A DNA stretch of 64,000 nucleotides from Prorocentrum cordatum (Eukaryota; Sar; Dinophyceae; Prorocentrales; Prorocentraceae), in assembly GCA_963575745.1 (NCBI GenBank), contig CAUYUJ010017997.1, forward strand, positions 47,501 to 111,500, written 5' to 3'. Shown piece by piece: positions 6,196-63,853 of this stretch (position 1 is the first letter of the stretch; every line of letters starts with the position of its first letter). The notes under the pieces are model-generated. The model made no database searches. It had not been told where the DNA came from and saw only the letters and a list, made by a program, of their open reading frames with translations. A program made the position numbers and the translations under genes.

Positions 6196-6258
6196 GCTGG
6201 GCGGCGCGCGGCGCAGCTCGGCGAGCTGGCCTCCGAGAGGGAGCGGCTCCTCCGGCAG
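6196..6258 (+). CDS. Candidate coiled-coil exon 1 (short form)
   Basis: It starts with GCT immediately after TCTCCAG and ends CGGCAG|GC. It encodes 21 residues containing AQLGELASERERLLRQ, which align one-to-one with the C-terminal 16 residues of the 25-residue core seen in the other copies. It is four codons shorter near the N-terminal side. Similarity continues past the CAG as AGQRDAE, so the exon may run to 6279. The function of the parent protein is unknown. Only a coiled coil (heptad leucines) can be inferred. Confidence 0.5.
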
Positions 6259-6325
6259 GCCGGCCAGCGCGACGCCGAGCCTTCGGTGCCAGGAAGGGCG
6301 GCGAGGGGAAGGGGGGAGAGAGGGA

Positions 6326-6690
6326 GGACAGGCAGGAGGAGGAGGAGGAGGACGACAACGAAGAGCAGGAGGAGAGGGGGGGGAGAAGGAGGACGAGGAG
6401 GAGGAGGAGGAAGAGGAGGAGGAGGAGGAGGAGGAGGAGGAGGAGAGAAGAAAGGGGAGGAGCAAGGAAAGCAGAGGGGGGAATCATGGGAGGGAGGAGG
6501 AGGAGGAGGAGGAGGAGGAGGAGGAGGAAAAGGATAATGAGCAGTGTTCGGAGTATTCGATGCCGTGTGGGCAGATAGGAGCACGGCTAGAAGGGGGAGC
6601 ATGAGGAGGAGGAGGAGGAGGAGGAGGAGGAGGAGGAGGAGGAGGAGGAGGAGGAGGGGGAGGATGAGGAGAAACAGGAAGAGGAACAGG
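6326..6690. repeat. GGA-rich tracts
   Basis: Three blocks of GGA repeats (about 6326-6455, 6495-6535 and 6601-6690) separated by short unique sequence. There is no gene. Poly-Arg and poly-Glu frames are artefacts. Confidence 0.95.
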
Positions 6691-6908
6691 AGGAGGAAGG
6701 TCGCCTTCGGGCGACCCTGTCTGACCGACCTAAAACCAGTGAGTCCAGTTCCTCCCCCTGACGAGGCCAGCGGCACGATCGAGCACGATTCGATTGAGCG
6801 AGGCTGATGTTCATGCGTTTGAGCGCCCCGTGCTCCTTTGCGAGTTGATCGGCATTTGTTTCTGTCAACTTCGTGTGTCATGAAACCTTCGCTTTCACCG
6901 AGTTTATT

Positions 6909-8190
6909 TTATCGCTTCGCTCATTCCGCCGGCCCGTACTGTGCCCTCGCTGGCGTTTGGGCTTTGGGGGGCCTTTTCGGGTCCTCGTTGGGGGTTTCTT
7001 CGGGGCCTCTTGGGTTTCTGTCGGAGCCTCTTTGGGGTTTCTTGGAGCTCCTTTGGGAGCATTTGGGAGCATCTTGGGGCTTCTGGGCGCCGCTTGGGGC
7101 CGAGAGCTCGATATGTCCGTTCCGGTTCCCACGTTGGGCCTCCTCTTTGGGCTGTCCTGGTGCCATCGTGGGCCGTGTCGGAGGCCTCTTGGGCTGTCTT
7201 GGAGGTGCCCTTTGGGCGCTGCGCTGCAAGCCCGCGGCGCCTAATGCGACTCGCACCCGGCGATGGACCACCGCTCCATCGAGGAGTGGAGGAGGGGATC
7301 AGGAGGAGGATGATGATGAGGAGGAGAAGGAGGAGGAGTGCCTGAGGAGGGTAGACGGAGCGCTGTGCAGAAGTTTCCCAGAACTTCTTTGTGCTCGCTG
7401 CCCATGTTATAGCATCGCTGGCACTTGCTAGCGTGGTCGGGGGGGAGGCATTTGGGGGGCCTCCTGGAGCCGCTTGGGAGCTTCTTGGGGGCCTCGTGAG
7501 GGCCTTTGGGGGGGCCTCCTGGGGCTTCTTAGGGGCCTCTTGGCGCCTCCTGGGGGCTTCTCACGGCCGAGGGCTCGAAATGTTGTTTCGTGTTCCCCCT
7601 CTGCGGCTTCTCTCAGAGCGTTCTTGGGGCCCTCTTGGGCCGTCTAGGAGGCCTCTTGGGCCGTCTTGGAACCCTCTTGGGCCGTCTTGGGGCCCTCTCG
7701 GAGGCCTCTCGGGCCTCTTCGGGCGATCTTGGGGGCCTCTTGGGCCGTCTTGGGGCGTCGCGATGCCGAAAAGGTGGAAACGCCAAACTCTCCCTAAAAC
7801 CTGAGGAAAAGCAATGAATTTTGCCTCTTGGGGCCCTCTTGGGAGTGCTCTGGAAAGCCTCGTGGGGCGTCTGGGGGCTATCTTGAGCGTCTTGGAGCGA
7901 TCTTGTGGCATCTCGGACCCTTGGTGTACCATCTTGGGGGCCTCTTGGGCCCTCTTGGCTCTTCTTGGGACTCTCTCTTGGCCCTTCTTGGGACTCTCGG
8001 GGACGTCTCGGGGCCCTGCTGGTGCGCTCCTGGAGCGCTCTGGGGGCTTCTCCCGGGACCTTGCCGGGGTACTTTTCGTCCGGGGACCCCCAGGGGCCGC
8101 CCCGCGCGGATCGAACTGGAAATTCTGTGAACCACTTACCGGAGATCTTAGCACGCCTCTGGGCCGCTGGGCAGGCGAATTTCATGCTAA
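6909..8190 (+). repeat. Large GGGCC-type repeat unit, copy D1
   Basis: It starts CGCTTCGCTCATTCCGCCGG, has a long interior of irregular 'ttgggggcctcttgg' units, and ends with a distinctive block (GGTACTTTTCGTCCGGGGAC, then ACCGGAGATCTTAGCACGCC). The same start, mid-unit landmarks (a GCTCGA-ATGT-like segment, a 'gaaacgccaaa' segment) and end recur in D2. Many bent frames are open, but the protein-like shadows (FGGLLGRLGALL) are repeat artefacts. Confidence 0.75.
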
Positions 8191-8293
8191 GGCCCCTGAG
8201 GAGCAGACACCGCCGCCCCACCTTCTTTGGGATCGTGGATCCTTGGGTGGGAAGAGGAGACTTTTGGGAGGGCGGGTGGAGGAACAGGAGGAC

Positions 8294-8450
8294 AATTGAA
8301 ATGATCGCAGAGGGCAAGGGGGGGTGTAAGACGGCCCCAGAGGGTTTCCCAGAGCGCGACCAAACTGGCAATTGGAATGATCCCGGAGGGCGAGAGGGGG
8401 GTGGACGACGGCCCCAGAGGGCTTCCAAAGACGCCAGGAAACTGCCGAAG
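8294..8450. repeat. 77-bp tandem repeat, two copies
   Basis: The segment AATTGAAATGATCGCAGAGG recurs 77 bp later as AATTGGAATGATCCCGGAGG, with the following ACGGCCCCAGAGGG shared. Confidence 0.85.
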
Positions 8451-9062
8451 AGGGCCCGAAGAGACAGCCAAAACATTCCAAAAGGGCACCAAAAGGTATG
8501 GAAAACTGCGGGCGCAACCGAACAGGGATATGGAGAGGCAAAAAGGAGCATTGCCAGTTAGCTTCTGGGCCTCAGAAAAACCTCCGGGGACCCTCTGGGC
8601 GCGCCCAAGGCCGCTCAGGACAGCGCAAAAACGGCGTCCAGACGGCCGAGGAGGGCCCCGTGTTTTGCTTATGTTTTTTGCTTGTTGGGGGTGTCTGGTT
8701 TCTGGTGTATGGAACTCGAAGACAGGTGGAATGGGCATCCGGGACGGCCGCTGGTGGCCCGAAGGACGGTGAAGAGCAGCCCAGAAAGAGCCCGCAGAGG
8801 CCCCCAAAACCGGCCCAGTAGGCTCTCGGAGAGGCCTCTGAGAGGGCCCCGGTGGCGCTCGGAAGCGGAGCACGTGAAAGGGGAGCCGTTTCGGGATGGA
8901 AGTGGCGGCCAGAGGGCGGCCCAGCCGCAGCCCAGGCCCTCGGGCCGGCGGAATGAGCGGGCCGCGGGGAGGACCATGGGAGGGGTTGTGAGGGCTCAGG
9001 GACTTACATAAAGCACTCTTGAAGACCATGCTGTGGATATCACACACATTACCCGGTGTGGC
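8451..9062. other. No gene recognised
   Basis: CCCCAAGA-type (reverse-orientation GGGCC) low-complexity sequence. Near 8948 there is an inverted copy of the D-unit start (CCGGCGGAATGAGCG), facing D2. Confidence 0.5.
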
Positions 9063-10070
9063 GGCGGCTCGATTCGCTCATTCCGCCGACCTGTATTGTG
9101 CCATCGTTGGCGTTAGCATGCGCATTCGTGGGCCATGCGGCGCTGCTGGTCCGGCGCTGCTACGAGGTTGTGGGTGAGAGTCCTCAGGGAGGGATGTTTC
9201 TTGGTGTCTTTTTTGAGGATTCTCGGGAGCTCCTGTGTGGCAGTTTTAGGAGCTATTGGGGGCCTCTTGGGGGCGCCTTGGATGCCTCTTGGGGCTCTCT
9301 CGGCGTCTCTTGGGGGCCTCTGGGACCCTCTGGGGGGCTCATGTGGTCCGCTTGGGAGCCTCGTGGTGGCTACTGGGAGTTCCTCGGAGGCCGGAGGGGA
9401 GGCTCTGGGGGCGGTTTGGAGGCCGAAGGCTTATTGAGAGCTCTTAGGCCTGGATGGGGGGCTCTGGGGGCGATTTTGCGGCGAACGCTCGACATGTCCG
9501 TTGGGTCTCCCCCTCGAGGAGTCTTCCTCAAGGTGTCGTGGGGCTCTCCAGCGCCGTCTTGGGAGAACCTGGGGCCGTCTTGGAGTAGCAGTGTGCCGTT
9601 TGGGGGCTCTTGGCGGCTTAATGGGCCGTCTTGGGGCGATCTTAGGGGCTTCTTGGGCGGTCTTAGAGCGTCGGCGGCCGAAAAGATGAGAACGCTGAGA
9701 ATCGTCAAAAACCATTAGGAAATCGATGGTTTGTGCCTCTAGGGGGCTTCCTGGGAGTAGTCTTTGAGGCATCTTCGGGCTTCTTGGAAGCGAATGGAGC
9801 CGTCTGGAGGCTATCTTGGGCATCTTGGAACCACTCCCGGTGACTCTGGGCCCTCTGAGACCGCCTTGGGGGCCTCTTGAGACGCTCCTGAAGGCCCTGA
9901 AGGCAGCCCCTAGGAGTTCCGGCATCCGTGACGGGGACCGCCTGGGAGTTCAGGCGGGTACTTTTCGTCCGGGGACCTCCAGGTGCAGCCACGCGCGCGC
10001 GAACTAGAAGTATTCCAAAGCTGTTACCAGAGATTTTGCACGCCTTTGGCACGTTTGGCCGGCGAATATG
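9063..10070 (+). repeat. Large GGGCC-type repeat unit, copy D2
   Basis: Landmarks match D1 in order: ATTCGCTCATTCCGCCGACC at the start, CGCTCGACATGTCCGTTGGG in the middle, then GGTACTTTTCGTCCGGGGAC and ACCAGAGATTTTGCACGCC at the end. It is about 270 bp shorter than D1, with internal rearrangement. Confidence 0.75.
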
Positions 10071-10329
10071 GTTCGCCTGGCTCGGCTGATATTGCCCATT
10101 GCGTCCCATCCGAGTGAAAGTCGTCGTCCTCTTCAAAGCAGCATCGCCGTTCACGCTCCATCTTGGTCGCTTGAACTTGCAAGCTGCCACTCTACATTAC
10201 TCGAAAGGCGCACGCCATTTCGCCGACCCCCAGAAGAGGAGACGTGCGGTCTCCGACGCCGTATGTGCTGTTTGCCGCTTCCCGTTTTGTTGCCTGCGCG
10301 TAGGTGTTGCCAATTCATCCTCCTCTTCC

Positions 10330-10735
10330 TCCACACTTGTTACGGCGTTTCTTGGGAGCCTCTCGGAGGCCTCGGGGGCGGTCTCGTGGGAGGCTTTTCA
10401 GGGCCCCTGGGAGCTTGGGTGAACCCTCTGGGAGCTTCCAGGGGTCATGCTGGGGGTCTTGAGGGCCATCTTGTGGGGGAGTGCCCCTGGGGCCCCAACT
10501 AGCTACCCCTTCCGGGGCCATCTTGGGGCCCTCTCGGGCTATCTTCAGGATTTCTTGGGGCCCCCTCTTGGGGCCCAATTGGGGCCCCTTTCAGAGGCCC
10601 TCTTGGGGCCTGTTTGGGCCACTCTTGGGGCCCTATTGGGGCCCTCTTCAGGGCTTCTTTGGCCGTGTTGGGGCACTCTCGGGCCGCCTCCAGGCCCTCT
10701 TGGGCCATCTCTGGGCCCTCTTGGGTCCTCTTCCT
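10330..10735. repeat. GGGCC/TCTTGGG low-complexity array
   Basis: Irregular units of about 30 bases built on 'cctcttggggcc'. It is related in composition to D1/D2, and I saw no long unit. Confidence 0.8.
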
Positions 10736-10895
10736 CCTCCTCCTCCTCCTCCTCCTCCTCCTCCGTCCTCCTCCTCCTCCTCCTCCTCCTCCTCCTCCTC
10801 CTCCGCCCTCCTCCTCCTCCTCCTTTTCCTTCTCCTCCTCCTCCTCCTCCTCCTCATTCTCCTCTTCCTTTTTCTTCTCCTCATCCTCCTCCTCC
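10736..10895. repeat. (TCC)n tract
   Basis: TCC/CTC repeats with short interruptions, ending at CCCGCCTCTTGAG. Confidence 0.95.
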
Positions 10896-11084
10896 CGCCT
10901 CTTGAGCCATCTGGGGCCGGTCTGGGTTTTCAGAAGCTTGGAAAGGCGAGAATGCGAAGATCATTGAGAATGTTAGCCAGCGTGGGCCCCAAGCAGCAAG
11001 GCAGTGCACTGTGGATGCGTCAGCGACGTGGTGCAAAGTGCGTGGTGCAAGCTACGTGGTGCAGTACACAGTGGACGTGGTGCA

Positions 11085-13550: not shown

Positions 13551-13572
13551 TCCGTAGCCATTTTGTCTCAAG
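13551..13572 (+). other. Dinoflagellate spliced-leader relic
   Basis: These 22 bases match the conserved dinoflagellate spliced leader at 21 positions: the CCGTAGCCATTTTG block is intact, then T for G, then CTCAAG. In living dinoflagellates this leader is added to mRNA 5' ends by trans-splicing. It is not encoded next to protein genes. Finding it in genomic DNA 69 bases before the ATG of an intronless gene is the known signature of a reverse-transcribed, re-integrated mRNA. Confidence 0.93.
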
Positions 13573-13641
13573 TCTGGCTCTCCTGCGCAAGAGATAGTGC
13601 CGGCTAGAACTTCGTTTGCAACCGCGGCAGGAGCGCACGCA

Positions 13642-15507
13642 ATGGCTTGTGTCGTCGATGGGGCACCTGTCGTCTATTGCTTGCTGAAGCATGCTTGCCG
13701 CCGCTTGCTGCCGCTGTACTTTGACCAGGTTCACGCAGTCGACGCCGAGAATTTGCCAGAGCCAGGCGTGCCGACGATCCTCGCGTTCAGCCACAGCAAC
13801 GACCTCGCCGACATGCTGCTGCTCCTCTCGGCCACGGAGAAGCGGTACATAAGATTCGGAGCGGCTTCGTTCCTCTTCAGGATGACAGGAGTGATGTCCG
13901 TCGTGAGTTTCATCGCGAACCGTATCGGGGCCGTCCCCGTGGTCCGCCTGCAGGAGACCGAGGGCGGCGGCACACAGCAGGCGGAGGCGAACAGGGCTCT
14001 CCTCGAGCGGATGATGGACGCTCTGAGCCGTGGCCAGTGTGTCGCCCTGGCGCCTGAGGGCGGCAGTAGATGCCGAGTCAAGTTGAATCCTTTCAAGCCT
14101 GGCGCCGGTGTCTTCGCCGAACGTGTAGTGATGCAGGAGCTTGCCGAGGGCCGGCCGGATTTCTCTGTGCGGATCGTGCCTGCTGGTGTGGTGTACACGC
14201 ATTGGACGCTTTGGCGCTCCGCTGCCATGGTGCGCTATGGCAAGCCTGTCATCGTGGACGCGGCGCGTCTCGACAGGTTTGGAATCACTCCGGACATCTA
14301 CAGCGATACGAGGAATCAGAGGCACCGCGACCTTGTTGACGATGTCATGAACGAGTTGAGGGGCAAGCTGGCCTCGGTTGCCTACGACATACCTGCGCAT
14401 GCAGTCAATGAGGGCGGCAGGGCGAGGATCGCGGACCCCGACAAATCGAAAATTCTCGAGGGAGATTTCCCAGCTCTTCGCAAGGGTGTCGTCGCCGCTC
14501 GCATGGCGCTGTTCGACTCGAACATCAGTAGATTGCCACGGATCGACATTTGGCAGGACGCGGTCGTCACCCTTGCCAAGGCGCTGCAGGCCAACAGAGA
14601 TCTCGGCAACGATGTCTGCAAGTACCATGAGTCGCTCGTGCGCGTGGGATTGCGAGACGCGCAAGTTCGGGGCCGCAGCCGAGCAGGATGCTGTCACATC
14701 CTCTGTGCGGCAATCTGGGCGCTGGTGTCGGTGTTGCCACTGCTCCTCGCAGCTCCTGGCGCCATCCTCTTCTCGCCCATGCTCCTCCTCACTTGGCGAA
14801 AGCACCGGGCCACGATCGCGAGGAGCAAGGCCATGCAGCAGTTCTCTGACGCCAACAACGCCACAAGCGAAGACGTCCGGAAGGCGTTGAAGGAGCAGCT
14901 TGGACGGGAGCCGGATGTTCAGGACATGCCCAGGGACGAGGACATCGTCCGCCGGCGCCGGAATTTTGACTTGATCACGGGCCGCGGGAAGGGCATCCTC
15001 GCTGTGCTTTACTTTGTGTTTCTCGAGTGCTTGTTCCTGGTGCTGGGCCTCTTCCGCGTGGGCAAGGTTGCGGAGCTCGTGCACGTGAGGAAGCCGATGG
15101 CCTGCGTTGGCGTCTTTCTGCTACTGCCGAGCTTTGTGTACCTCTTCTTCGTCCTTTCGCTTCGTGCCCTGGACGAGGCATGTGCCCTGCTACGCACGGC
15201 CTCCGGGCACTGGGCTCTTGCGCGGGTGGCGAACCAGAAGCTGGCGGAGTTGCGTGGAGAGCGTGAGCGACTGCGCAGGGAAGTTTTGGATCTTCAGGGC
15301 ATTGACGAGGTCGTGGCTAGGGCCCAGGAGACGCCGGCAGGTTGGTCCAATCTACTCTTCGGACGGAGCCGAAGCGACTGGATGGAGGCCCTGAGCTTGT
15401 CGGAGGATCTGGAACTCAGCCTGAGCGGATTCTACGAGGACCCGCCCTGCGGCGTGAATGCCCGAGAGCGAGAGCCGCACGAGGGTTATGACCAACTCGC
15501 CGAATAG
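13642..15507 (+). CDS. Glycerol-3-phosphate acyltransferase (SCT1/GPT2 type), retroposed
   Basis: An uninterrupted 621-residue protein from ATG 13642 to TAG 15505. An upstream GTG frame extends to 13597, but the ATG is the first after the leader relic. The PlsC-type acyltransferase core has motif I as FSHSNDLAD (H51, D57, the H-x5-D spacing of yeast SCT1/GPT2), then GAVPVVR (96-102), motif III ALAPEGGSR (135-143, E139) and motif IV VRIVPAGVVY (176-185) with YGKPV following. C-terminal membrane segments lie at about 353-384, 451-470 and 487-507, then a basic/acidic coil near 524-552 and an acidic tail. Family members acylate the sn-1 position of glycerol-3-phosphate (or dihydroxyacetone phosphate) at the ER as the first step of glycerolipid synthesis. 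There is no intron, frameshift or stop, so it may be functional or recently inserted. Whether it is transcribed here is unknown. Confidence 0.92.
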   Translation: MACVVDGAPVVYCLLKHACRRLLPLYFDQVHAVDAENLPEPGVPTILAFSHSNDLADMLLLLSATEKRYIRFGAASFLFRMTGVMSVVSFIANRIGAVPVVRLQETEGGGTQQAEANRALLERMMDALSRGQCVALAPEGGSRCRVKLNPFKPGAGVFAERVVMQELAEGRPDFSVRIVPAGVVYTHWTLWRSAAMVRYGKPVIVDAARLDRFGITPDIYSDTRNQRHRDLVDDVMNELRGKLASVAYDIPAHAVNEGGRARIADPDKSKILEGDFPALRKGVVAARMALFDSNISRLPRIDIWQDAVVTLAKALQANRDLGNDVCKYHESLVRVGLRDAQVRGRSRAGCCHILCAAIWALVSVLPLLLAAPGAILFSPMLLLTWRKHRATIARSKAMQQFSDANNATSEDVRKALKEQLGREPDVQDMPRDEDIVRRRRNFDLITGRGKGILAVLYFVFLECLFLVLGLFRVGKVAELVHVRKPMACVGVFLLLPSFVYLFFVLSLRALDEACALLRTASGHWALARVANQKLAELRGERERLRREVLDLQGIDEVVARAQETPAGWSNLLFGRSRSDWMEALSLSEDLELSLSGFYEDPPCGVNAREREPHEGYDQLAE

Positions 15508-17432: not shown

Positions 17433-17507
17433 GCGAATGCAGCCGACGAGGAACTGCGAGCGCAGCTTCGTGCGCTCGAGACCGAGAGGGAACAGGCGCA
17501 GCAGCAG
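17433..17507 (+). CDS. Candidate coiled-coil exon 2
   Basis: It is preceded by CCCGCTCGTCAG and ends CAGCAGCAG|GCGCGAG. It is exactly 25 codons, beginning with GCG. The peptide contains ADEELRAQLRALETEREQ. Leucines at 8, 12 and 15 occupy heptad a/d positions. Compared with exon 11 at 63779, many third codon positions differ (CGA/CGG, CTT/CTG, GCA/GCG) while the leucines and RAQL stay, which points to conservation of the protein. A stop or splice must follow, because similarity ends at the CAG. Confidence 0.6.
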
Positions 17508-21008: not shown

Positions 21009-21083
21009 GCGGCGAGGGGCGAGGAGACGCTCCGAGCAGAGCTCGACCGGCTCGCCTCCGAGAACGAGCGGGCCCGGCAACAG
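21009..21083 (+). CDS. Candidate coiled-coil exon 3
   Basis: It follows CCTCGTGTGAAG and ends CGGCAACAG|GCTGCG. It has 25 codons, with the peptide including EETLRAELDRLASENERARQ and leucines at 8, 12 and 15. The acceptor lacks an obvious pyrimidine tract, which is common in dinoflagellates. The adjacent element T on the left and a GGA tract on the right would be intronic. Confidence 0.6.
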
Positions 21084-24261: not shown

Positions 24262-24336
24262 GCGGAGCACGCGGAGGCGGCGGCGAGGGCGCGCCTCGAG
24301 GGCGGGGACGCCGAGAGGCAGCGGCTCCAGCAGCAG
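24262..24336 (+). CDS. Candidate coiled-coil exon 4
   Basis: It starts GCG after GGGCCCGCAG and ends CTCCAGCAGCAG|GCAGCC. It has 25 codons with the peptide AEHAEAAARARLEGGDAERQ and then RLQQQ. Position 8 is Ala rather than Leu, but L12 and the QQQ end fit. It is bracketed by the two family O hairpins (one ends 32 bases before it, the other begins 141 bases after), which supports these being intronic insertions around a retained segment. Confidence 0.6.
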
Positions 24337-25817: not shown

Positions 25818-25892
25818 GCAGCGCAGGCGGACGAGGACATGAGAAACCAGCTCGGCACGCTCGAGATGGAGAAGCAGCAGCTGCTTCAGCAG
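25818..25892 (+). CDS. Candidate coiled-coil exon 5
   Basis: It follows CGTTCCTGGCAG and ends CTTCAGCAG|GCGCG. It is exactly 25 codons, with the peptide AAQADEDMRNQLGTLEMEKQ and then QLLQQ, and L12 and L15 kept. Two codons after the CAG the frame meets TAA, so if it is an exon it must splice at CAG|GC or at the GT seven bases further. This makes it a useful test copy for the GC-donor idea. It is followed 22 bases later by inverted-repeat element Y. Confidence 0.6.
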
Positions 25893-28596: not shown

Positions 28597-28671
28597 GCCG
28601 AGGCCGCAGAGGGCGCGCTGCGGGGGCGCCTCGAGGTGCTGGAGGCCGAGGGCGCGGGGCTGCGGCTTCGG
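28597..28671 (+). CDS. Candidate coiled-coil exon 6
   Basis: It starts GCC after GCGCCCGAG. The core of 25 codons has the peptide AEAAEGALRGRLEVLEAEGA and then GLRLR, with leucines at 8, 12, 15 and 22. The core ends CTTCGG|GC rather than CAG|GC, but similarity continues as AAAAAE to a GAG|GC site at 28689. The first 19 residues are almost those of exon 7 at 46379. Confidence 0.6.
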
Positions 28672-28765
28672 GCCGCCGCCGCGGCCGAGGCGGCCACGCG
28701 CCGCTCCGGGCGCGTGCCGCCCCGCTGGCCCCGCGCATGCCGCCTCGGTCGCGTGCCGCCCTGCT

Positions 28766-38518: not shown

Positions 38519-40792
38519 TCAAAGAACGAGGCATCTTGTGATGCCGATGGATGGGCCTTGACTTTTCACACTCGCATTGCCACCGTGTTTCAGCCACCAG
38601 CTTTCCCAAAACTGCCTGCTGAAATTAATGAGGCTCAGCGCTTTCGAGGCGTTCCTAGCACAGCCTATGGCCCCAGTGCAATCCGAGAAGACTGTCACCG
38701 CCCCGTCGCTGGCAGGATCGACCGGGAAATGCGACAACATGTGGAACGCGTCATCTTCCGCGTCCCTGGCGGACTGCGTCAAAGACCATGCCAAGGGGAC
38801 AGCACCATCCATTCCACATCTGAGCGAGCCGTCATCGTTGCAGCTGATGACAGCCCATCCCGCACGACGTAGGCCGCCGTGCTGGGTAAAAAACGAGGAA
38901 CCGTCCACAAACACCTCTCCCTCGAAGAGCCATCCCGGCATACACCCCACGAAGCGGAGATGATCCTCCTCGGGGATATCGCGACCCTGGTAGACATGCG
39001 ACGGCGAGGGCAGAAGACCCCTAGCAGAATAGTCACCGCACTCCTCGCCCTTGCTTTTGGCAATGCGAGCCGCCTTGAGCAGCTCGGGCGGACAAAACTC
39101 TCTCCTGAGAAACTCCGACTGGGGCAATCGACATATCGGTGCCAGAGGGTCCCACGGGCCGCCACGGGCCCCGCATTTCACGCAAAACGGATGGGTGGCT
39201 CTCCCTTTCGCGTGATGCCTGCTTTGGCTCCAGTGGGCCCCGCAGTTGACAGACCTGAAGGCGTTGACGTGCCTCTTGGTCCACAGCTCTGAGGTTCTCG
39301 CCAGCGCCGAAACCACGGACCCCCAGTGGACCTCCGAAACCCAAGGACCCCCAAGCCTCCTCAGAGCTGTGGCATCAGAGGCGGCACAGGCAGAGGCTAG
39401 GACCACCTGGCAGGCAGCACCAGGCGAGAAAAAGTCGAGGTCGATCTCGCGCTGGCGATGATCGAGCAGCAAGGTGTGCCGAGCTAGTTGGCAACCAGCT
39501 CTGGCGAGGCTGAGCACAGCGGCCTGGCCTGGGCCAGTGCACTTGCTCCACGGCTTGTCGACGTCCAGCAACTGTACGGCATCAGCGTGAACCATTATGA
39601 TAACTTCTTGCTGGGGGAGCCCGTCACTAACTCCGATGGACCACGCCTTGGCCACTTCCACAGCGTTGACTACGAACGGGCCCCTGACCACAGCCCGCGG
39701 CATGGTGTGCACCCTGAAGGCCAGGCAGGTGCCAGGGGCCAGCCTGGCCTCGGCTCTGAGCGCGTGCACCCTCAGACCGTTCAGCTTGCCGTCCGCGGTG
39801 CCAGTGACCGCCGAGCCCCAGCGCGCCGCGGCGCACGGCGCGCCACGGAAGGTGCGGCACGACTTGGCCCCCGCGGCTTGCAGCAGCTCGATCCTGCTTG
39901 CTGCCCTCTTGGCTCGGGCGAGCCTCTCGGCATGCTCTGGCACTCGCCCTCTGCCGCCGTCGTTGCCGTCGCCACCGAGGCATCGCATGCCAGAGGCCCT
40001 GGTCAGGCCCAGGTCGGACCAGTGGCGGTCCAGCTCCTGAGCCAGCTCCGCATCTGTGGTCATCCACCCCGCCCTTCCCCAGTTGATCTCGAGGCGCCTC
40101 TGCTGGAGCCCCTCGGAGAGGTCGTGGGCTGCATGGGGCAGCCGGCGCCCTGCCATGCGAGCCGTGCCAATTGCCTGGAGGAGGCAGTCGTTCACCAGGC
40201 GCTGGGCCCGCACCAGCGGGCAACTGCTGGCGATGCCACGCAGCAGGGCGTAGGTCAGCAGCTCGGCGACCCCAACCGCACACGAGCAGCCCGCAGCCGC
40301 GGCGCCGGTGGCCTCGATGGCGGGCCCGACCCCCTTGCCCAGCATCGCCTTGCGCGGGAGGCGGTAGCTCGAGCAGAGGGCCCCGAACAGCACCATGGGG
40401 AACTCCGTCGCGACCGCTTGGTCGTGGAGCTCGTCGTGGCTCATCATCTCGTAGCACTCCGTGAGATCGATAACCAGGGTGCTGGACACCATGCCAGTCT
40501 CCCTCGCGAAGGCGGTCATCACCTTGTGCACGAAACCATCCTCATCGCAGGAGCGGTCGGAGGTGCCCCAGTGGAAGGACTGGTCGATCCTGCGCTCCCA
40601 AGCTGCAACTATAGGCTGGCGCAGCTTCGACCAGACACGAGTCCAGAGGCTGGCCATAATGATGGGCCGCGCTCCACCAGGCGGGGGCTTCGGCAGGAAG
40701 ACCACCATCAGCATCTTCAGCGAGCAGCGCGTCGGCTGCCTCTCCCAGGCTCCCACGACAGGAAGGCCTGACGGCAGTGGCGCGGCAGCCAC
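38519..40792 (-). pseudogene. Retrotransposon reverse transcriptase and RNase H
   Basis: A 757-codon frame. The RT signature starts VVFLPKPPPGGARPI (about residues 30-44), and the catalytic Asp of block A is in LVIDLTECYEMMSH (D109). Block B is GCSCAVGVAELLTYALL (169-185). Block C reads LVND (199-202), where functional enzymes have xxDD, so the first of the paired Asps is Asn. RNase H begins FVDGSSFF (about 628; D630), has AED (E679) and SDCTGAI (D704). The frame then breaks: 'gtgaaaagtc' carries one extra A, after which the next frame reads the expected KAH and LADRWAKKGA of RNase H. Confidence 0.9.
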
Positions 40793-40828
40793 CGAAGCTG
40801 CCGCGGGCGCAGGCGGCCCCGCCCGAGG

Positions 40829-41576
40829 CTAGTCCCCATTGGAGGCCAGCACGTAGTCCAGGGCGTCCATGGTGATGGGCGGGAGGTCCTGCCAGGCGCC
40901 ATCTTCACCGCGCGCCCAGAGCCGAGGGTCTGAGCCCCCTTCCCTGCCAGGGTGAATCCTGAGGTTCCCCCACTCCTTCATCCGCACCTTCATGGCGGCA
41001 TCACCTGCCACTGGGAGGCCAGGGTCACTGTCGTCATCCTCGTGCGCTATCACCGTCGACGGGATCAATCTGCCGTCCTTGATGAAGCGATATGCCTTCT
41101 GGCCTCCTGACTTGGTGGCAGCCTCCTGTGCCCACTCTCAATTCCTTACTACGCTTGGCCTTGTCCCTCCTCTGGATGGAGGCTACGTGGTCATCGAGGT
41201 CGACCAGGAGGGCGTGGTAGTCGTGCAAGTCCAGCTCCTGGAACACGTGCGCAATGGCATGCTGGTCCCATGCAGCAAGCGGCCCAGAGGTCGGCCACTC
41301 CGCCTTGTCGAACTCGAACGCACGCACCAAGCGGACCTGGCGCTCGAAGCGGGAATACCTGACCCAGCCGTTGTCCAGTTGGTGTTCTCGAAGAGCGGCC
41401 GCCTTTCTGCAAGGCGCTAGCACGCCTGCCCACTTGCGGTACTCCGCGCTGGTCGTCTCCTTCAGCGTGTCCTCCCACTCCTGGACCAGAGGAACTGTCT
41501 CCACCTGCAGGCCTCTGTCTATGGTCACTCTGCTACGCTTGTGGCCTTCCAGCTGGTGGAGCCTGCCAGGGCGCAC
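40829..41576 (-). pseudogene. Retrotransposon linker before the RT
   Basis: Two frames cover this span. 41576-41034 has basic and acidic helical composition (EWEDTLKETTSAEYRKWAGV, SRFERQVRLVRAFEFDKAEW). 41068-40829 is already in the RT frame but ends at a TAG in phase with the RT frame. No domain name can be given. Confidence 0.7.
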
Positions 41577-42402
41577 CAGAACTCGGAGGCTTCCTCCGCG
41601 TCAGTAGGTCCAGCCCCCAGGCGCCGCGGCCATTCGTCATCAACGAGCTCAGGCGGCGCTGCCTGCGCAGGAGGTGGCAGGGCCAGCGGGTACCGACTGG
41701 GGTAGACCGCCTTGGTGACCGTGACCTTCGGCGCAGGCCCTTCAGCTCGATGGCGGTCGGCGAGTGCGGCGAGATCGGGGCGTCGCCCAGCACTTTGACC
41801 GCGCCAACACGACGGGCAAGTGCCCCCGACACTATGGCGTAGTCGTGCTCGCGCTTGCCGCAAGTTGGACACCAGGGACACACGAGCACTCCTGAGGCCT
41901 GATTTGCCCAGCTGGCCAAGTCGCCAGACTCGGTGTTCCAGTCCGCCAGGATGGCCCACGGCCACGCAAGGCCTCCAACCCAAGATTGCAGGGCCTCGAG
42001 CAGCGCAATTCCGAGGCCTGTGACCCCGATGCTGCCCACCACGTAGGCCGAGACAAAGAAGATCGGGAAGCCCCGGCCCGAGTTGAGCTTCGCGGCTCTC
42101 GCCCGATGGGGGGCCCAGCACACTGCATTCCTTGGGCCTATCAACGCTGGCCGCCGCCATCGCCACGAGGACTGCCACGCCTCCAGAGCTGTCCAGGGGT
42201 CCTGGGCCCGCGTCCTGCGCCAGACTCCGAGGAACTCGAAGCCAGCGCGCCGAGTCCAGTTCGCCGCCGACTTCAGCTTGGCGCCATTCTTGATATGGTG
42301 CCCCTGCAGGCCGACGACGTCGAACGTCAGCTTCTTGTCACTGCTCCACTCCAAGAAGGCCCGACCACTGGCCCGCGAGTTGGTATCCGCCGAAACTATC
42401 AA
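41533..42402 (-). pseudogene. Retrotransposon endonuclease (EEP) domain
   Basis: A 289-codon frame with the layout of an endonuclease/exonuclease/phosphatase domain. The order is IVSADTNSRASGRAFLEW, then FDVVGLQGHH where the family has QE (catalytic Glu replaced by Gly). Next come ILADWNTES (the GDFN position), HDYAIVSGAL, and PISPHSPTAIEL where the family has SDH (Asp replaced by Pro). Such domains nick the target DNA for LINE insertion. The two lost catalytic residues indicate inactivity. Confidence 0.8.
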
Positions 42403-43541
42403 GAGCTTGTCGAGCGCTTTTCCAGCAGCGATGCACTGCTGACCGCTGGCACCAGGGGCAGGGAGAACTCCTGCACCTCGGGCTGCGCTGACACTCGATG
42501 CACCAACGAGAGGTCGCCGAGCACGAGTCTCCAGCCCACCTCGCCGAGGCCCAGCTCCGCCGCAAACCTAGGCCCCTGCTTGCCCGCGGCCTCCTCCAAA
42601 GCGGACGCGGTCCTGCCAGGCCTGCCTCTCGTACTCGACTCTTCCGAAGGCGGCCCCGCACTCGACGATTCGGCTGGCTACTCGCCACGCGACAGCGACA
42701 ACCTCTGAGCGGCGTGCTCTGACGACAGCTCAGGGCAGACCTCGGCCGCCAGCGGCGGCACAGGCTCCACGGCGGCAGCCCCGCGGGCGGCATCTGCAGC
42801 GCGCCTGCCAGGCACTGCACCGAACTCCTCCTCCGCCTCGGTCATGGAGCGCGCGTGCCGCGCCACCTGCTCCTCCCACTCCTGTGCGTCGGACTGGGCC
42901 AGCCTACGCATGTTGGCGTGGCAGTTGGCCCGAATGCGTCGCCGTGCTGCCCGCGCCCCCTCGCAGAAGTCCTGCGCCATCCTGGGCCTGGCCCCGCCCA
43001 TGTCGTTGATGCCGATCGTCCGAGCCGCCTCGAAGACGAGCGGCGTCCACGTACCATGCATCAGCAGGTCGGCCACGTAGGACACGCACACGCGCAGCCT
43101 TTGCGCTCTGTCTCCAGCTTCGTCAAGCACAGAGACGCCCTGGAGCCAGAACGTGGCGCAGGCCCTCAGCCTTCTCTCGGGCATCCTGCGCGCCGACACG
43201 GCCGCTCGCAGCGCAGGGTTCTGGTCCTTGGCCTCCGCGATAGTTCCAGCAGCTTCGCGACCCACAGCAGCAGCTTGAGCACTAGGCCTGCCTTCATGTG
43301 GCGACGTCTGCCATCCCTCCGCCGACCCCCGCTCACAAGGTCCCTCACGTGGGTCCAGGGGCTCGAGTGAACCCAAGCCCTGTGTGGGTTTCGTCTGCGA
43401 ACGGGTCTCAGGCCACTCCAAGTCGTACTCGTTGGACCCCCAGAACTTCCCGAGGTCCGCCCAGCCTGCGGCTTCGCCATGACGCAGGCCTTCCTGTCCA
43501 TGGTCAAACACGCTGCCGTCTTGCTGCCAGTGCTTGTGCAT
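42399..43541 (-). pseudogene. Retrotransposon middle region
   Basis: One frame runs from 43541 to 42399, broken only by a TAG at 42678-42680. It includes a Trp/Arg-rich helical section (RLRACATFWLQGVSVLDEAG, RMAQDFCEGARAARRRIRAN) and, after the stop, an alternating hydrophobic stretch (GWRLVLGDLSLVHRV) that leads into the endonuclease domain after a frame change. Function unknown. Confidence 0.7.
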
Positions 43542-46378: not shown

Positions 46379-46453
46379 GCCGAGGCGGCGGAGGGGGCGC
46401 TGAGAGCGCGGCTCGAGGCGTTGGAGTCCGAGAATGCAGAGGCTCGGATCCAG
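46379..46453 (+). CDS. Candidate coiled-coil exon 7
   Basis: It starts GCC after CCCCACGCCCCAG, which has a pyrimidine tract before the AG. The core of 25 codons has the peptide AEAAEGALRARLEALESENA and then EARIQ, ending GGATCCAG|GCCGCT. Similarity extends as AAAMAE to GAG|GC at 46471. Exon 6 is its closest relative, although a 17.8-kb gap with the retrotransposon separates them. Confidence 0.65.
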
Positions 46454-46471
46454 GCCGCTGCCATGGCCGAG

Positions 46472-51460: not shown

Positions 51461-51535
51461 GCCAGAGCCCAAGACGCCGGCCTGGCGGCGCAGGTCGGCA
51501 GGCTGGAGTCCGAGAAGGCGCACCTCCAGCAGCAG
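51461..51535 (+). CDS. Candidate coiled-coil exon 9
   Basis: It starts GCC after CCCGTCGCCAAG and ends CTCCAGCAGCAG|GCCAGC. It is 25 codons, with the peptide ARAQDAGLAAQVGRLESEKA and then HLQQQ, and hydrophobics at 8, 12, 15 and 22. Similarity extends six codons (ASACAE) to GAG|GC at 51553. A pyrimidine-rich stretch (cgcccggcccccccgtcg) precedes the AG. Confidence 0.65.
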
Positions 51536-51619
51536 GCCAGCGCATGCGCCGAGGCCGCCCTCCCAATGGCCCGCTCTGCACCGCGAGTGGCGGCGCGGAG
51601 GTCTTGGAGCAGGGAGGAG

Positions 51620-58046: not shown

Positions 58047-58048
58047 CA

Positions 58049-58211: not shown

Positions 58212-58224
58212 AGCGATCAAAGCT

Positions 58225-58467: not shown

Positions 58468-58580
58468 GGCCAGGGACGCATTGACCAGGGTTTGGGTGCA
58501 GGATCCTGCAGGATCCTTCGCATTGACCCGGGTTTGGGTGCAGGATCTTGCAGGATTCTGCAAGGGTTGACTGACCTGGG
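58468..58580. repeat. GCAGGATCCTGCAGGATCC tandem repeat
   Basis: Two to three units of cattgacc(c/a)gggtttgggtgcaggatcctgcagg, each containing short palindromes. Confidence 0.88.
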
Positions 58581-58923: not shown

Positions 58924-59140
58924 AAGGTACGGCTCGATCCGGCCGATCCGATTCGACGTTGGCCCCTGGCGGCTCGATCCGATCCAACTTCGATGCTCCA
59001 GCGGAGCAGATGCGGCCAAGTGCTCGCATGGCGCTGTTGTGCATCCCCGCGCTGCAGATCCGATTCGATTTCAGCTCCGTGCCGATGCAGCCCGACCCGA
59101 TACACGTTCTGATTCGATCCGGTTTTCCCGATCTGCTGGC
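58924..59140 (+). repeat. GATCCGAT-rich dispersed repeat M, copy 2
   Basis: GATCCGATTCGACGTTGGCC, then CATGGCGCTGTTGTGCATCC, AGCTCCGTGCCGATGCAGCC and TTTTCCCGAT, parallel to 21181-21398. Confidence 0.82.
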
Positions 59141-59345
59141 TCATCCCGGGGATGGCGGGAGGTGGGGAGGGGGTCCGGCGTTGGGCGGAGGAACGGTCCG
59201 CGGACATCCGAATGATACCGGGAAGTTGGACACTTGTGACGTTGCCGCCCCTTGGCGAGAGGTGGAACGGTATGTGCCCGCATGTCTTAGCAGCGCGCGG
59301 CCCTCATGGCAAGGCACGGCGATCGGAGAGGAAAAAACAGCATGG

Positions 59346-59500
59346 ACATGGACTTTCGGAGCTCCGCTGGGACTTGGATCGGCGCTGGGTCCCGCTGGCG
59401 GCGCCTCTGGCGCCGCCCTTGACGCGCTCCGCGCGCCAGGGATGTGGTCCCAGCGCCGATCCGAGAAGCCCGCGCGGAATTTCTTTAAAAAAGTGCTGTG
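59346..59500. mobile_element. Family C palindromic element
   Basis: GGACTTGGATCGGCGCTGGG and CCCAGCGCCGATCCGAGAAG arms. The core is CTGGCGGCGCCTCTGGCGCC followed by GCGCTCCGCGCGCCAGG. Confidence 0.85.
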
Positions 59501-59635
59501 GAGTTGTTATTCTTACCTCCGCATGTGTATTCAGCAAGTGGCCTCCGCATGTTCAGCGCCTGAATCCAGCCGTGTGCTTTGAGGCCCCTTTGAGCGGGGT
59601 TCCTCCGGGCCCGCGCCGCGACCCTCGCCGCTCAG

Positions 59636-59710
59636 GCCAGGGCGGCGGAGGAGGCGCTGCGGGCGGAGGTCGGCAGGCTCGAAGGAGAGAGGGCGGAGCT
59701 GCAGCAGCAG
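59636..59710 (+). CDS. Candidate coiled-coil exon 10
   Basis: It starts GCC after CCTCGCCGCTCAG and ends CTGCAGCAGCAG|GCCGCC. It is 25 codons, with the peptide ARAAEEALRAEVGRLEGERA and then ELQQQ. Similarity to exon 11 extends past the core as AAAASE to GAG|GC at 59728 and stops there, after which GGA repeats begin. Upstream flanks of exons 10 and 11 share only the last few bases before the AG. Confidence 0.7.
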
Positions 59711-59739
59711 GCCGCCGCCGCGTCCGAGGCCTGCCCGCC

Positions 59740-60126
59740 GGGAGGAGCCGGAGGAGGAGGAGGAAGCGGAGGAGGAGGCGGAGGCGGAGGCGGAGGCGGA
59801 GGCGGAGGAGGCGGAGCAGGAGGAGGAGGAGGGGGAGAAGGCGGAGGCGGAGGCGGAGGCGGAGGAGGAAGAGGAGGAGCAGGAGGAGGAGGAGGAGGAG
59901 GAGGAGGAGGAGGAGGAGGAGGAGGAGGAGGAGGAGGAGGGGGAGGAGGAGGCGGAGGAGGAGGAGGTGGGGGAGGATGCGGAGGGGGAGGAGGAGGAGG
60001 CGGAGGAGGAGGAGTAGGAGGGGGAGGAGGCGGAGGCGAAGGCGGATGCGGAGGCGGAGGCGCAGGAGGAGGGGTTGGAGGAGGAGGAGGAGGAGGAGGA
60101 GGAGGAGGAGGAGGAGGAGAAGGAGG

Positions 60127-60180
<54 letters not shown>

Positions 60181-60190
60181 AGAAGCAGGA
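59740..60190. repeat. (GGA)n/(GGC)n then (GGAGCA)n tract
   Basis: Over 400 bases of GGA with GGC, ending in eight GGAGCA hexamers at about 60126-60180. Confidence 0.98.
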
Positions 60191-60431
60191 GGGGAGGAAG
60201 GAGGTTGTCTGCTCCTGCCCTGGCGCTGCCGTGGCCCGGCGGGGGGAGAGCGACACCACTCGGGAGTTGCGTAATGGGTCAGGAAGACAACTACCGGGTG
60301 GGAGGACGGGAGTGGGCACCCATAGGCGGCCGAATGTAGTTATCGTTCATCGCATCCAGATGGTACGTTGCTCATAGCCTTCATCCTCCCAACCTATTCC
60401 TCCCAACGCGATAGTTGTTCTCCCCAGAGGT

Positions 60432-60598
60432 GGGAAGTGAGAAGGAGAAGGCCTTCTCAGAATGCGGCGGGGCTTCTCAGAAGCGCTCCGGCCTTCTCAG
60501 AGGTTTTCTGTGTCGTCGGGGAAGGCTGCCAAAAACGTCTCAGCAGAAGGCCACGGGGTCTGAGCCTTCTGAGAAGGCTTTCTCATTCTCGCTTCCCG
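60432..60598. mobile_element. Family S inverted-repeat element, copy 2
   Basis: GGGAAGTGAGAAGGAGAAGG at the left pairs with TTTCTCATTCTCGCTTCCC at the right. The interior has ccttctcag / ctgagaagg words. Confidence 0.8.
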
Positions 60599-60685
60599 CC
60601 CTGGAACCGCCGCCGAGTAGTGGAGGGGCGGTGATTGGGGGAGGCAGGAAAGGCGCACCTCTCGTGCACCATAGGTGCCCTAAAT

Positions 60686-60845
60686 CTAAGTCGGGCCTGT
60701 TCCTCTACAGGGTTGAGCTTCAAGAGTACTTATAAAAAAAGTCTGGGGACGATTTGCTGGGTATTTTTGAATATGTTTGGGATATGTTCTGACTATGTTT
60801 ATTTTTTCGCCCCAAATCCGCATGTATGGGGGGCACGCCCGACTT
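60686..60845. mobile_element. Family A element, copy A11
   Basis: CTAAGTCGGGCCTGTTCCTC at the left and GTATGGGGGGCACGCCCGAC, TTAA at the right. Confidence 0.88.
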
Positions 60846-60988
60846 AACCCTAAAGAGGCCCCCTAGAGTGCGTACGTTTCTTCACTTCCCGTGCTCACTC
60901 GCCCCCCCGTCAAGCAACGCCCGGGCCACAACCAGGGGGCGCCGCCTCCGGGCAAGAGGCCCGCGACGCCTCCCCAGGAGGTCCCCTT

Positions 60989-61136
60989 GACTCCTCTCGC
61001 TGGTGGTGGGGTCAGCTTTCCTTGTTCCTACAGACGGAGGAGTGGGACGGGATGGCCCCCCTGACTCCTCTCGCTGGTGGTGGAGTCAGCTTTCCTTGCC
61101 CTTGCAGACGGAGGAGGTGGGCGGAATGGCGACGTT
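60989..61136. repeat. 74-bp tandem duplication
   Basis: GACTCCTCTCGCTGGTGGTG at 60989 and 61063, then GTCAGCTTTCCTTG and ACAGACGGAGGAG in both. Confidence 0.93.
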
Positions 61137-61460
61137 GGGTCTGCAGGTGCGCACTCGACGTCCGAGAGCAGGACCACGTGACGATGGGGCACTTCGCGGG
61201 GGGCACTCCTGATCCGCAGACGTGTTTCTGCCGAGATCGTGAGTGTGAGAGTATGTGCATTTGCGCGTCCTCTCACCCGTGCATCTGTATGCCTTGTACA
61301 ACGCCTGGCTGTCTCTGCCCAACGGTCGACGATGCTTGATTCTCAGTAGGGTTGCCAGTAATGACCGCGCTACCTAACAATGAGGGTTGTCCCGTGTGCA
61401 TGTGTCCCGCCTTCATTCCTGCGCCGCCGGTGAGAGTCACCAGCGCGTCGGAGGGAAAAT
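61137..61460. other. No gene recognised
   Basis: Unique sequence. A + frame with several Cys (GHFAGGTPDPQTCFCRDREC) is open but unrecognised. Confidence 0.4.
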
Positions 61461-61461
61461 C

Positions 61462-61573
61462 TGTGTGTGTTGTGTGTGTGTGGTGTGCGTGTGTGGTGTG
61501 TGTGTGTGTGGTGTGTGTGTGTGTGGTGTGAGTGTGTGGTGTGTGTGCCGTGTGTGTGTGTGTGAGTGTGTGT

Positions 61574-61645
<72 letters not shown>

Positions 61646-61790
61646 TGGGGGGGGGGGGGGGGGGGGGGCCTTCGTGTGTGGGTGTGTGGGTGCGTGGGTG
61701 CGTGGGTGGGTGGTTGCGTGCGTGCGTGCGTGCGCGCGTACGTGCGTGCGTTTGCGTTCGTGCGTACGTGCGTGGGTGCGTGTGCGCGCC
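61462..61790. repeat. (GT)n, G-run and (GTGC)n tract
   Basis: GT repeats with GGTGTGT variants to 61646, an uninterrupted run of about 20 G near 61648-61668, then gtgcgtgg / cgtgcgtg units. Confidence 0.97.
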
Positions 61791-62802
61791 TCCCTCTGTG
61801 CTCTGCGCCGCGCGGCCTGCCCGTTCCCTCTGCACGTTGGGGCCCCCGGGTGGCACCGGCGTTCCGCCGAGCGGCTGCTGCTGCGGGGCGTGCGTTCAGC
61901 CGATCTTGACCTCCCCCGCAACAAGTCTGCAGCCCAGCTTCGGCAAAGCGCTGGGCGAGCCCGACACCATAGTCACGAGCGCAAAGTGCGCTCAGCATTC
62001 AACAAGCATCGTCATCGTCATCGTCATCGTACACGCTTCACCTGGCCGCCTCGCTGGCGTTTTTGCGCGTGCACGCTCCCACGCCACGGCGCTGTTTTTT
62101 CCTGCAGCCCCAAGCGGAACTCAACCAAGCGCGCCCCGCCTCGGGACTCGCGACGGTGTCGCCACCTCGTCGCCGGAGGAGCAGTGTGCGCGTCAGTCTC
62201 TCTTTCTCTCTCTCTCTCTCTCTCTCCCGACGGGCTCCCTCTATACCCCGCTCTCTGCTGGCGCTCGATGTACAGTTGTGTATGATGACGTTCCTGCCAG
62301 AGCAAAGCACCCTCATGTTCGGTGTATCGCGCCTCATGTCATCTGCATTCTTACCCGTCGGTCGTTGAAAGTAGGTATTTCTGGACTCCCAGATCCCAAT
62401 CTGCGTCAAGCGCCTTCCTACTTCAAGAGTCGGCATGCGTTTGCTGTTCTTCGTTATTCTCTGGGAGGGCTTGAACCCAACCTACTTCATCCGCTTTCTT
62501 ACTTCATGCTTCCACCTTCAAGGGAGGAAAAACCACCCCGACCCCGACTATTGGCGTTTACTCAGCGGCCCTGGGCTTTTACTAAACAGCCCTGTCTTGT
62601 TCGATCCCTTCCCTGGGCGCGCTGACTACACGGCTGCGCTTGCCGGGGTGATTCTTGTGAGGGTGGGTTCTCTGTTCTCTACACCTTCTCCCGACCGACG
62701 TGTCGGGAAAGGGGGCGAGCGTGTCTTGCAGTGCCCACCTGCGACGCCATCAGAAGAGCCGGGTCGGACGACAAGGGAGGATAGCACCGTTTGCAGCTGG
62801 CC
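61791..62802. other. No gene recognised; (CT)n at 62204-62227
   Basis: A CGTCATCGTCAT hexamer-like run lies near 62008-62028 and (CT)n at 62204-62227. The remaining open frames lack domains. Confidence 0.45.
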
Positions 62803-62962
62803 TTAAGTCGGGCCTGTCCCCCTACAGGGGGAATATTCAAAAATAGACCAACAAATAATATGGGGACCATGTGTCGCTATTTGTTGTAGCATGTTTGATC
62901 ATGTGTTGACAATTTGTTATGCTTCGTCCAGAATTCGCCTGTAAGAAAACACGTCCGACTGA
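62803..62962. mobile_element. Family A element, copy A12
   Basis: TTAAGTCGGGCCTGTCCCCC, TACAGGGGGAATATTC at the left. The right end is AATTCGCCTGTAAGAAAACA, CGTCCGACT. Confidence 0.88.
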
Positions 62963-63345
62963 AAGCTGGCCGCGCGCTTCCTCGATACCGTGGCGCCGCC
63001 TGGCGCATGGAGGCGGCGGAGAAGCCAGCTGCGCGAGCGGTTCGGCAACTCCCCCTCTGGTTATCCCGCCTTCGGAGGGCGGGATAACCACAAGGAACGT
63101 CAACAATATCTTTACGATTGGACCCGTATGCTCTACATACTGAATCTTCCGATGGTTTGACACATGGGTTTGGTTTTAGCTTCAGCAAAAACTGGCCTGT
63201 TATGGGTTTTAGACCACCAGCGCCTGGAAAAAAACATTACAAAACCACTAAAACCTTGACAGACCCTTAACGAGTCCCCTGCACGACAGGATGCGTTCCC
63301 TGGTGACTACTCACGCCCTCCTCTCGTCCGACTGGGAAGAGCAGA
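62963..63345. other. No gene; perfect hairpin at 63060-63091
   Basis: A 12-bp arm GGTTATCCCGCC, a loop of about seven bases and GGCGGGATAACC. Otherwise unrecognised. Confidence 0.6.
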
Positions 63346-63500
63346 CAGACACAGAGAGGCGTCGATCCCCCGGAGAATGTGACGAAGATATGGGAAGCAG
63401 AGGTGAAGACGAGAGCCCAGAATATATAGAAAAATATTGGGGATCTGGGGATTCGTGTCTATTTCTTTGCGTGTCTCTGGCCCTTCAAAAAGAGTATTGT
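63346..63500 (+). repeat. Dispersed repeat R, copy 2
   Basis: GGCGTCGATCCCCCGGAGAA, GATATGGGAAG, GAGCCCAGAATATATAGAAA, AATATTGGGG, matching 37-200. Confidence 0.65.
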
Positions 63501-63631
63501 ACCCCCTCCGCGGCGGGCCCTCTCCACGGCATTGGGGGACGCGGCAGATGCCCACGCACCAATCCTGGCCAGGTCCCGTCTTGGGGCCGGGATCGGCGTT
63601 AATATGCCTCTCTGGCCGAGCCAGGAGGCCA

Positions 63632-63675
63632 TATACGTGTGTGTGTGTGTGTGTATATGTATATATACACACATT
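63632..63675. repeat. (GT)n/(TA)n microsatellite
   Basis: gtgtgtgtgtgtgt then atatgtatatatacacac. Confidence 0.95.
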
Positions 63676-63778
63676 TTGCACCGATCCTGGGCCCCAGGAG
63701 TGGTCCAGGCCAGGAGCGGTGCACATGATGCTTGCCACTCTCTCCTCCACAGTGCCCGCTTCTGCTGCCGTCGCTCAG

Positions 63779-63853
63779 GCCGGGGCGGCCGAGGAGGCGC
63801 TGCGGGCGCAGCTGGCCGAGCTGGAGGGCGAGAGGGCGGAGCTGCGGCAGCAG
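63779..63853 (+). CDS. Candidate coiled-coil exon 11
   Basis: It starts GCC after TGCTGCCGTCGCTCAG and ends CTGCGGCAGCAG|GCCGCC. It is 25 codons, with the peptide AGAAEEALRAQLAELEGERA and then ELRQQ. It is the closest to the consensus of the set, with leucines at 8, 12, 15 and 22. Similarity extends to GAG|GC at 63871. The window ends 130 bases later in a TCC tract, so further copies may lie beyond. Confidence 0.7.

Follow-up and report, generated by a model that had tools for sequence, protein, structure and literature searches.

The window analysed here is a stretch of 64,000 bases from the dinoflagellate Prorocentrum cordatum, corresponding to bases 47501-111500 of contig CAUYUJ010017997.1 (C17148; 217,743 bases, of which 10 kb reads N). 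Its G+C content is 61.6%, that of the genome being 59.7% according to the accessible part of PMC10666404. The plus strand carries nine short copies of one coiled-coil segment, each bounded by splice-like signals (a slash marks the boundary). Four copies have 25 codons: those at 17433..17507, 24262..24336 and 25818..25892 are framed CAG/...CAG/GC, and that at 21009..21083 is framed AAG/...CAG/GC. An in-frame TAA begins six bases after the end of the 25818 copy, and a coding exon therefore has to stop before it. The other five have 31 codons and end in GAG/GC; they are preceded by CAG at 46379..46471, 59636..59728 and 63779..63871, by GAG at 28597..28689, and by AAG at 51461..51553, the latter belonging to the subtype ALAAQV. 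These assignments were made from profile scores and splice-site signals, complemented by a tree for 51461 and by pair comparison for 63779, which is 90% identical to a copy at 77168, outside the window. In our interpretation, to which a probability of about 0.8 is given, the copies are exons of one nuclear gene of P. cordatum, each holding one repeat, which would be spliced in phase 0 into a helical rod protein with intron-free relatives.

A profile built from the nine 25-codon copies scored them at 50-66 in the scan of the window. The runner-up on the plus strand, in the 6196 region, reached 23.6, the top minus-strand score was 12.2, and the top score in six Markov-shuffled windows, one strand each, was 10.2. 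When each copy was left out of the profile in turn, it still ranked 5th-9th on the plus strand, level with or right after the other eight. Among the open 25-codon windows lying between AG and AG/GC on both strands (n = 72), ranks 1-8 were copies already noticed in the preliminary description of this DNA and rank 9 was a GGA run (20.8); 28597 is missing from this list, its codon 25 being CGG. Of the 62 open 31-codon windows, the highest-scoring were 59636, 63779, 51461, 46379 and 28597 (67 to 92), the next one scoring -4.9; the 31-codon profile contains these five window units and the ranking is hence partly circular, which the leave-one-out scan is not. The preliminary description had treated eleven segments as copies of one unit. 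This holds for the nine, is probable for the segment at 6196..6258 (plus strand, 21 codons, AG/GC...CAG/GC) and fails for 47889, rejected with a score of -29.8 and rank 9576 of 127,852. The 6196 segment scores 10.4 ungapped and 22.3 as a 21-codon exon with four codons missing, and is first of the 60 AG/21 codons/AGGC windows (the second reaches 20.9). It is probably a shortened copy of the unit, and may be either part of the gene or an upstream remnant. The leucines said to be kept at positions 8, 12 and 15 are mostly present, with exceptions at position 8 (A in 24262, M in 25818), position 12 (V in 51461 and 59636) and position 15 (G in 24262).

Extension of the scan to the whole contig gave two further plus-strand copies past the window end, at window coordinates 65280 and 77168. 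No minus-strand copy was found on the 218-kb contig, where the best score listed among windows with at most 11 E and at most 11 A was 15.9, against at least 53.9 for the copies; the single orientation noticed earlier is thus confirmed. A second split locus lies on contig C4185, and its exons were not used in building the profile. It consists of six single-unit exons within 33 kb, all on the plus strand, five of 31 codons and one of 25, with AG in front and AG/GC after; three of them share 87-89% identity, and one intron has only 148 bases. In the 39 of 72 kb covered, 10 kb of it N, no unit on the minus strand of C4185 passed the threshold applied. A search of the genome (4.13 Gb, 21,875 contigs) with one 31-codon unit returned 83 matches with E values of 10 or less, distributed over ten contigs, and for four of these (C16225, C14779, C14057 and C1191) every match had E >0.5. 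On C16225, two weak matches about 1.1 kb apart on the minus strand at approximately 19.6-20.8 kb (E 0.1-2.4) are possibly a third split locus. The repeat also occurs without introns. Contig C20266 contains an open frame of 1159 codons with 32 scored unit matches arranged head to tail, intron-free and spaced mostly by 31 residues, with some spacings of 25 and other lengths. C15647 and C16311 bear similar intron-free runs, and C17767 appears to do so, judging from its match rows; on the strand scanned there no match was seen.

The intron-free arrays provide the comparison by which the boundaries of the split copies can be judged. The 17 split units of both loci were compared with 38 intron-free units lying in clean register, a selection from the 78 scored units of C20266, C15647 and C16311. 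Of the 17 split units, 13 are preceded by CAG, compared with 3 of the 38 intron-free units (p = 7e-7), in which the coding GAG is the most frequent triplet. Between positions -24 and -4 (21 bases), the pyrimidine fraction is 0.67 in split units, 0.47 in intron-free units and 0.44 at 474 other intronic AG/GC sites, and the level of the split units was reached in 0 of 20,000 resamples of the latter. Both signals argue for real 3' splice sites. All 17 units lie in a symmetric exon of their own, of 75 or 93 bases, with AG before and AG/GC after, the unit end (codon 25 or 31) having been assigned by the AG/GC signal itself. No stop interrupts the 25-codon core in any of the 17, although the profile penalises stops. 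Six chosen close pairs gave a mean nonsynonymous divergence (dN) of 0.136 and a mean synonymous divergence (dS) of 0.314. Their ratio, 0.43, by itself lends weak support, since the exons are short and their third positions are rich in G+C (0.91). Hence, the symmetric phase-0 exons proposed earlier are well supported, and we conclude from these signals that the copies are most probably real exons, joined in phase 0.

The contrary reading, a dispersed family of pseudogene fragments with no gene behind it, would agree with the far divergence of some copies (24262 and 25818), yet it is very improbable. Breakpoints of fragments would not fall on the unit boundary every time, and the constant lengths of 75 or 93 bases between splice-like sites, the CAG and pyrimidine signals, the uninterrupted cores and the single orientation at each locus all speak against it, as do the dN/dS of about 0.43 and the second locus of like design. 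The random breakpoints, broken frames and both orientations to be expected of such fragments were not seen on C17148 and C4185.

The eleven sure exons on C17148, from 17433 to 77260, amount to 951 coding bases, i.e. 317 codons in 60 kb. Provided that no intervening exon escaped notice, the introns would measure 1,408 to 17,689 bases, in agreement with the earlier estimate of GC-AG introns of 1.5-18 kb. For P. cordatum, the accessible part of PMC10666404 gives mean lengths of 4,709 bases for introns and 24,462 bases for genes, with GC donors at 51.4% and AGG acceptors at 79.7%. GC donors and long introns are normal for this species as described there. The 'giant' gene of the preliminary description is not supported: with 317 codons known over 60 kb and introns near the species average of 4.7 kb, the gene is not giant, though longer than the 24-kb mean.

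The natural unit has 31 residues, because the units of the arrays mostly sit 31 residues apart; the 25 codons singled out previously remain valid as the leucine-bearing core, but not as the repeat unit. Two subtypes of the unit, ...ALRAQLGRLEDE... and ...ALAAQVSRLESE..., are each present in split and intron-free loci. The heptad register read from the sequence places d at 1, 8, 15, 22 and 29 and a at 5, 12, 19 and 26, which implies a heptad shift of three per 31-residue unit and of four per 25-residue unit. For 221 residues of the C20266 array modelled alone, a single helix from residue 2 to 220 was predicted (mean predicted local distance difference test score, pLDDT, 90; predicted template modelling score, pTM, 0.42). 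A coiled-coil product, as proposed from the start, is supported. The search for a known coiled-coil family was made with the intron-free array frames as queries, not with the split units: the C20266 frame has no match in Pfam and none by sequence in the PDB, and the C15647 frame gives one sub-threshold Pfam match only (TMF_TATA_bd, 20.1 bits against a cut-off of 29.1). A shared N-terminal region was considered and rejected, as residues 1-141 of the C15647 frame have no convincing tblastn match on C17148 or on the examined part of C4185 (best E 0.15 over 12 residues). In the genome as a whole, approximately residues 70-141 of that frame match further repeat arrays in long open frames, those among the matches listed being on C20755 (1815 codons), C1051 (1286) and C18677 (1207), which may represent a wider set of long repeat proteins. 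Of the papers listed by full-text searches, none is shown by its title or the opening of its abstract to describe this gene, a search lying mostly outside subscription journals and outside the supplementary gene tables of PMC10666404.

According to the proposed scheme, the nine segments and the flanking copies would be transcribed as exons of a single nuclear gene, each encoding exactly one coiled-coil repeat of 25 or 31 residues, and splicing at AG/GC donors and mostly CAG/GC acceptors would join them in phase 0 into a long helical product that may act as a rod. The gene would be a member of a family whose other loci hold the repeat head to tail in long intron-free frames. Every exon being symmetric, gain or loss of an exon would alter the length of the rod and leave the frame intact. 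As to origin, introns may have been gained or replaced time and again at the AG/GC of the unit boundary (Glu-Ala, GAG/GCN) or, alternatively, the exon sequence may have spread via spliced RNA.

The close exon pairs are not saturated: codons for the same residue are identical in 23 of 25 cases between 63779 and 77168 (15.2 expected at saturation) and in 23 of 26 between the exons 69745 and 69986 (15.5 expected). Nevertheless, the 20-120 bases upstream scored only 8.5-18.5 in nine close pairs, a shuffled-like level in eight of them. In simulated descent, 15% divergence gave a mean score of 65 (minimum 44), 30% a mean of 35 (minimum 17) and 45% a mean of 15.3 (minimum 8), so that only descent past roughly 30-45% divergence could go unseen. 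Comparison of whole introns, with stretches of at least 80 bases listed, gave scattered shared stretches of 80-487 bases in both orientations and in no order that tracks the exon pairs; the two introns flanking exon 24262 share 110 bases at 93%. The outermost nine bases, first and last, match slightly better in close pairs than in others. In short, some exons up to 90% identical have introns that are alike over little more than about ten bases, and neighbouring introns do not align where the exons are recent copies, with the possible exception of GGA tracts near the donors. The tract directly after the donor of 59636 is (GGAGGA)n at 59741..60204 on the plus strand. Of the 17 donors, 12 are followed within 400 bases by at least three GGA-type hexamers, a number reached in 21% of 400-base windows taken at random from the contig and in 4 of 17 upstream flanks, the threshold having been chosen once examples had been seen; TCC-type hexamers reach this number after 6 and before 5 of 17 exons, against a background of 17%. 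The GGA tracts could have been co-duplicated, or could aid in defining weak GC donors, and are possibly splicing signals.

These results put in doubt repeated exon duplication, the origin favoured in the preliminary description, taken here as tandem duplication of exon plus intron with later scrambling of the introns by transposons and minisatellites. Runs of like subtype suggest local copying, as seen in the three similar exons of C4185 and in the likeness of 59636, 63779, 65280 and 77168; the GGA tracts could have been copied together with the exons, and all 17 donors are GC, compared with about half of the donors of the species in the accessible data. But very fast intron replacement would be needed to reconcile duplication with flanks that look shuffled in 8 of 9 pairs and with shared intron stretches lacking exon-pair order, although flanks 45% diverged would escape the comparison. 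We regard this origin as rather unlikely.

Independent intron gains at the AG/GC unit boundary of a once intron-free array would explain why the introns are unrelated, and arrays with GAG/GCN at most unit boundaries do exist. The tree of 51 units (12 split ones of 31 codons and 39 intron-free ones; 93 columns) also bears on this possibility. Split units group with both subtypes of the intron-free arrays; a single split clade was rejected by the approximately unbiased (AU) test (p = 0.0155), four changes were counted, and none of 200 bootstrap trees had one change. It is therefore probable that the two subtypes existed before split and intron-free loci became different. The tree is nevertheless weak: 24 of 48 branches are open, the test group was chosen from the data, and the well-supported branches taken alone force just one change and so permit a single origin. 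Moreover, the pattern is all-or-none, all 17 split exons holding one unit and no exon of two or three units being seen in the split loci, and the intron ends carry no inverted repeats. Independent gain may be taken as a tentative explanation, less probable than not. A more specific version, doubtful at present, takes the two forms of the repeat, one free of introns and one interrupted at each AG/GC boundary by a long unrelated intron, as stages of intron gain within one genome: the Glu-Ala junction would be a recurrent intron acceptor in a genome rich in GC donors, with the GGA tracts near the donors helping to define the weak ones. Origin of the introns from degenerate units was tried and rejected, for when both ends of 15 introns were scored in frame only 1 of 30 had p < 0.05 and one more p = 0.052, no excess over chance.

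In the third possibility the split gene would be the older form, from whose spliced messenger RNA (mRNA) the intron-free arrays arose as retrocopies; homogenisation by this route would affect exons and spare introns, which would account for exon likeness without intron likeness. Retroposition has been at work locally. An acyltransferase gene without introns (13642-15504, plus strand; PF01553, E 1.2e-8) is situated between 6196 and 17433. It is preceded, 70-90 bases ahead of its ATG, by a near-perfect relic of the dinoflagellate spliced leader (DinoSL) at 13552-13572, with 20 of 21 bases, and together with this relic it occupies 13552-15507. It is classed as a retrogene because such a relic is the criterion used in the accessible part of PMC6050394, where dinoflagellate retrogenes are described as abundant. 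By contrast, no DinoSL relic was found in the examined stretches of C20266, C15647, C16311 and C4185, which may miss the 5' ends, and the G+C content at third codon positions differs, being 0.91 in split units and 0.78 and 0.77 in two arrays. Retrocopying as the source of the arrays is accordingly judged unlikely. The acyltransferase retrogene may lie in the intron that follows 6196, or may indicate how far upstream the gene really extends. Near copies of it occur on C7730 and C13935 (94%, residues 1-434, one stop each) and on C14578 (77%, residues 1-396, one stop). Outside the window, at bases 23268-23303 of C17148 (plus strand), two DinoSL-like relics stand head to tail, with 3 and 4 mismatches of 21 and the core intact, an arrangement that might be left by a gene retroposed more than once. 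The longest intron, of 17.7 kb, contains two long open frames on the minus strand (38522-40828 and 41536-42567), which by eye resemble pieces of a long interspersed nuclear element (LINE) and have no match in Pfam. Altogether, when 20 stretches of contig C17148 were compared with Pfam, only the acyltransferase exceeded the curated cut-off; two further matches were weak and fell short of it.

Several observations weigh against the gene proposed here and its origin. At the C17148 locus neither a start nor a terminal exon nor a known domain was found. The dN/dS of single pairs ranges from 0.30 to 1.4, and some of the six pairs share members. The flank comparison is blind to homology at about 45% divergence, the simulated mean of 15.3 falling inside the observed range; upstream, the pair 63779 and 65280 alone of the nine gives p = 0.01, and downstream, three of the nine pairs score above shuffled sequence, an excess attributed to GGA tracts. 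Inverted repeats between the intron ends do not go beyond those of swapped ends, the longest exact match between the outer 40 bases of 15 introns being 4-7 bases (mean 5.1, against 5.5 with swapped ends), and no unit remnants were detected at the 30 ends of these introns. The inferred origin is therefore without positive evidence for its mechanism.

Because one genome holds both split and intron-free forms of one 31-residue repeat, with comparable units and non-aligning introns, dinoflagellate introns can here be tested directly for how, and in which direction, they were gained, lost or replaced. The results also indicate a family of long, rod-like helical proteins unnamed in Pfam, and exons of 75-93 bases separated by kilobases are probably easily overlooked by gene finders.

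Three known systems can be compared with this locus. The retrogenes with DinoSL relics treated in the available text of PMC6050394 differ in that no relic was seen at the intron-free arrays in the stretches examined, but share with it the existence of intron-free relatives of split genes and, here, a tagged retrogene inside the locus. Introners of Amoebophrya and P. cordatum, as far as the accessible parts of PMC7789003 and PMC10666404 describe them, have short direct repeats over both exon/intron junctions and non-GT donors. The introns of the split loci are similar in having non-GT donors and what may be direct repeats of a few bases (AGGC) spanning both junctions: AG/GC stands at both junctions in all 17 cases, partly as a consequence of the Ala codon, of GC-AG splicing and of the chosen end. 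Unlike introners, they are not alike and lack inverted repeats of 8-20 bases between their ends, and introners of the described kind are thus not supported for the 15 introns. Genes with one exon per repeat are exemplified by the fibrillar collagens, with their 54-base exons, and by the PEVK exons of titin. The locus resembles them in its short symmetric exons of near-constant size, with one or a few repeats each, and in its predicted long repetitive product. It would encode another protein, however, and differs in that the introns of similar exons do not align and that arrays of its repeat free of introns are present in the same genome.

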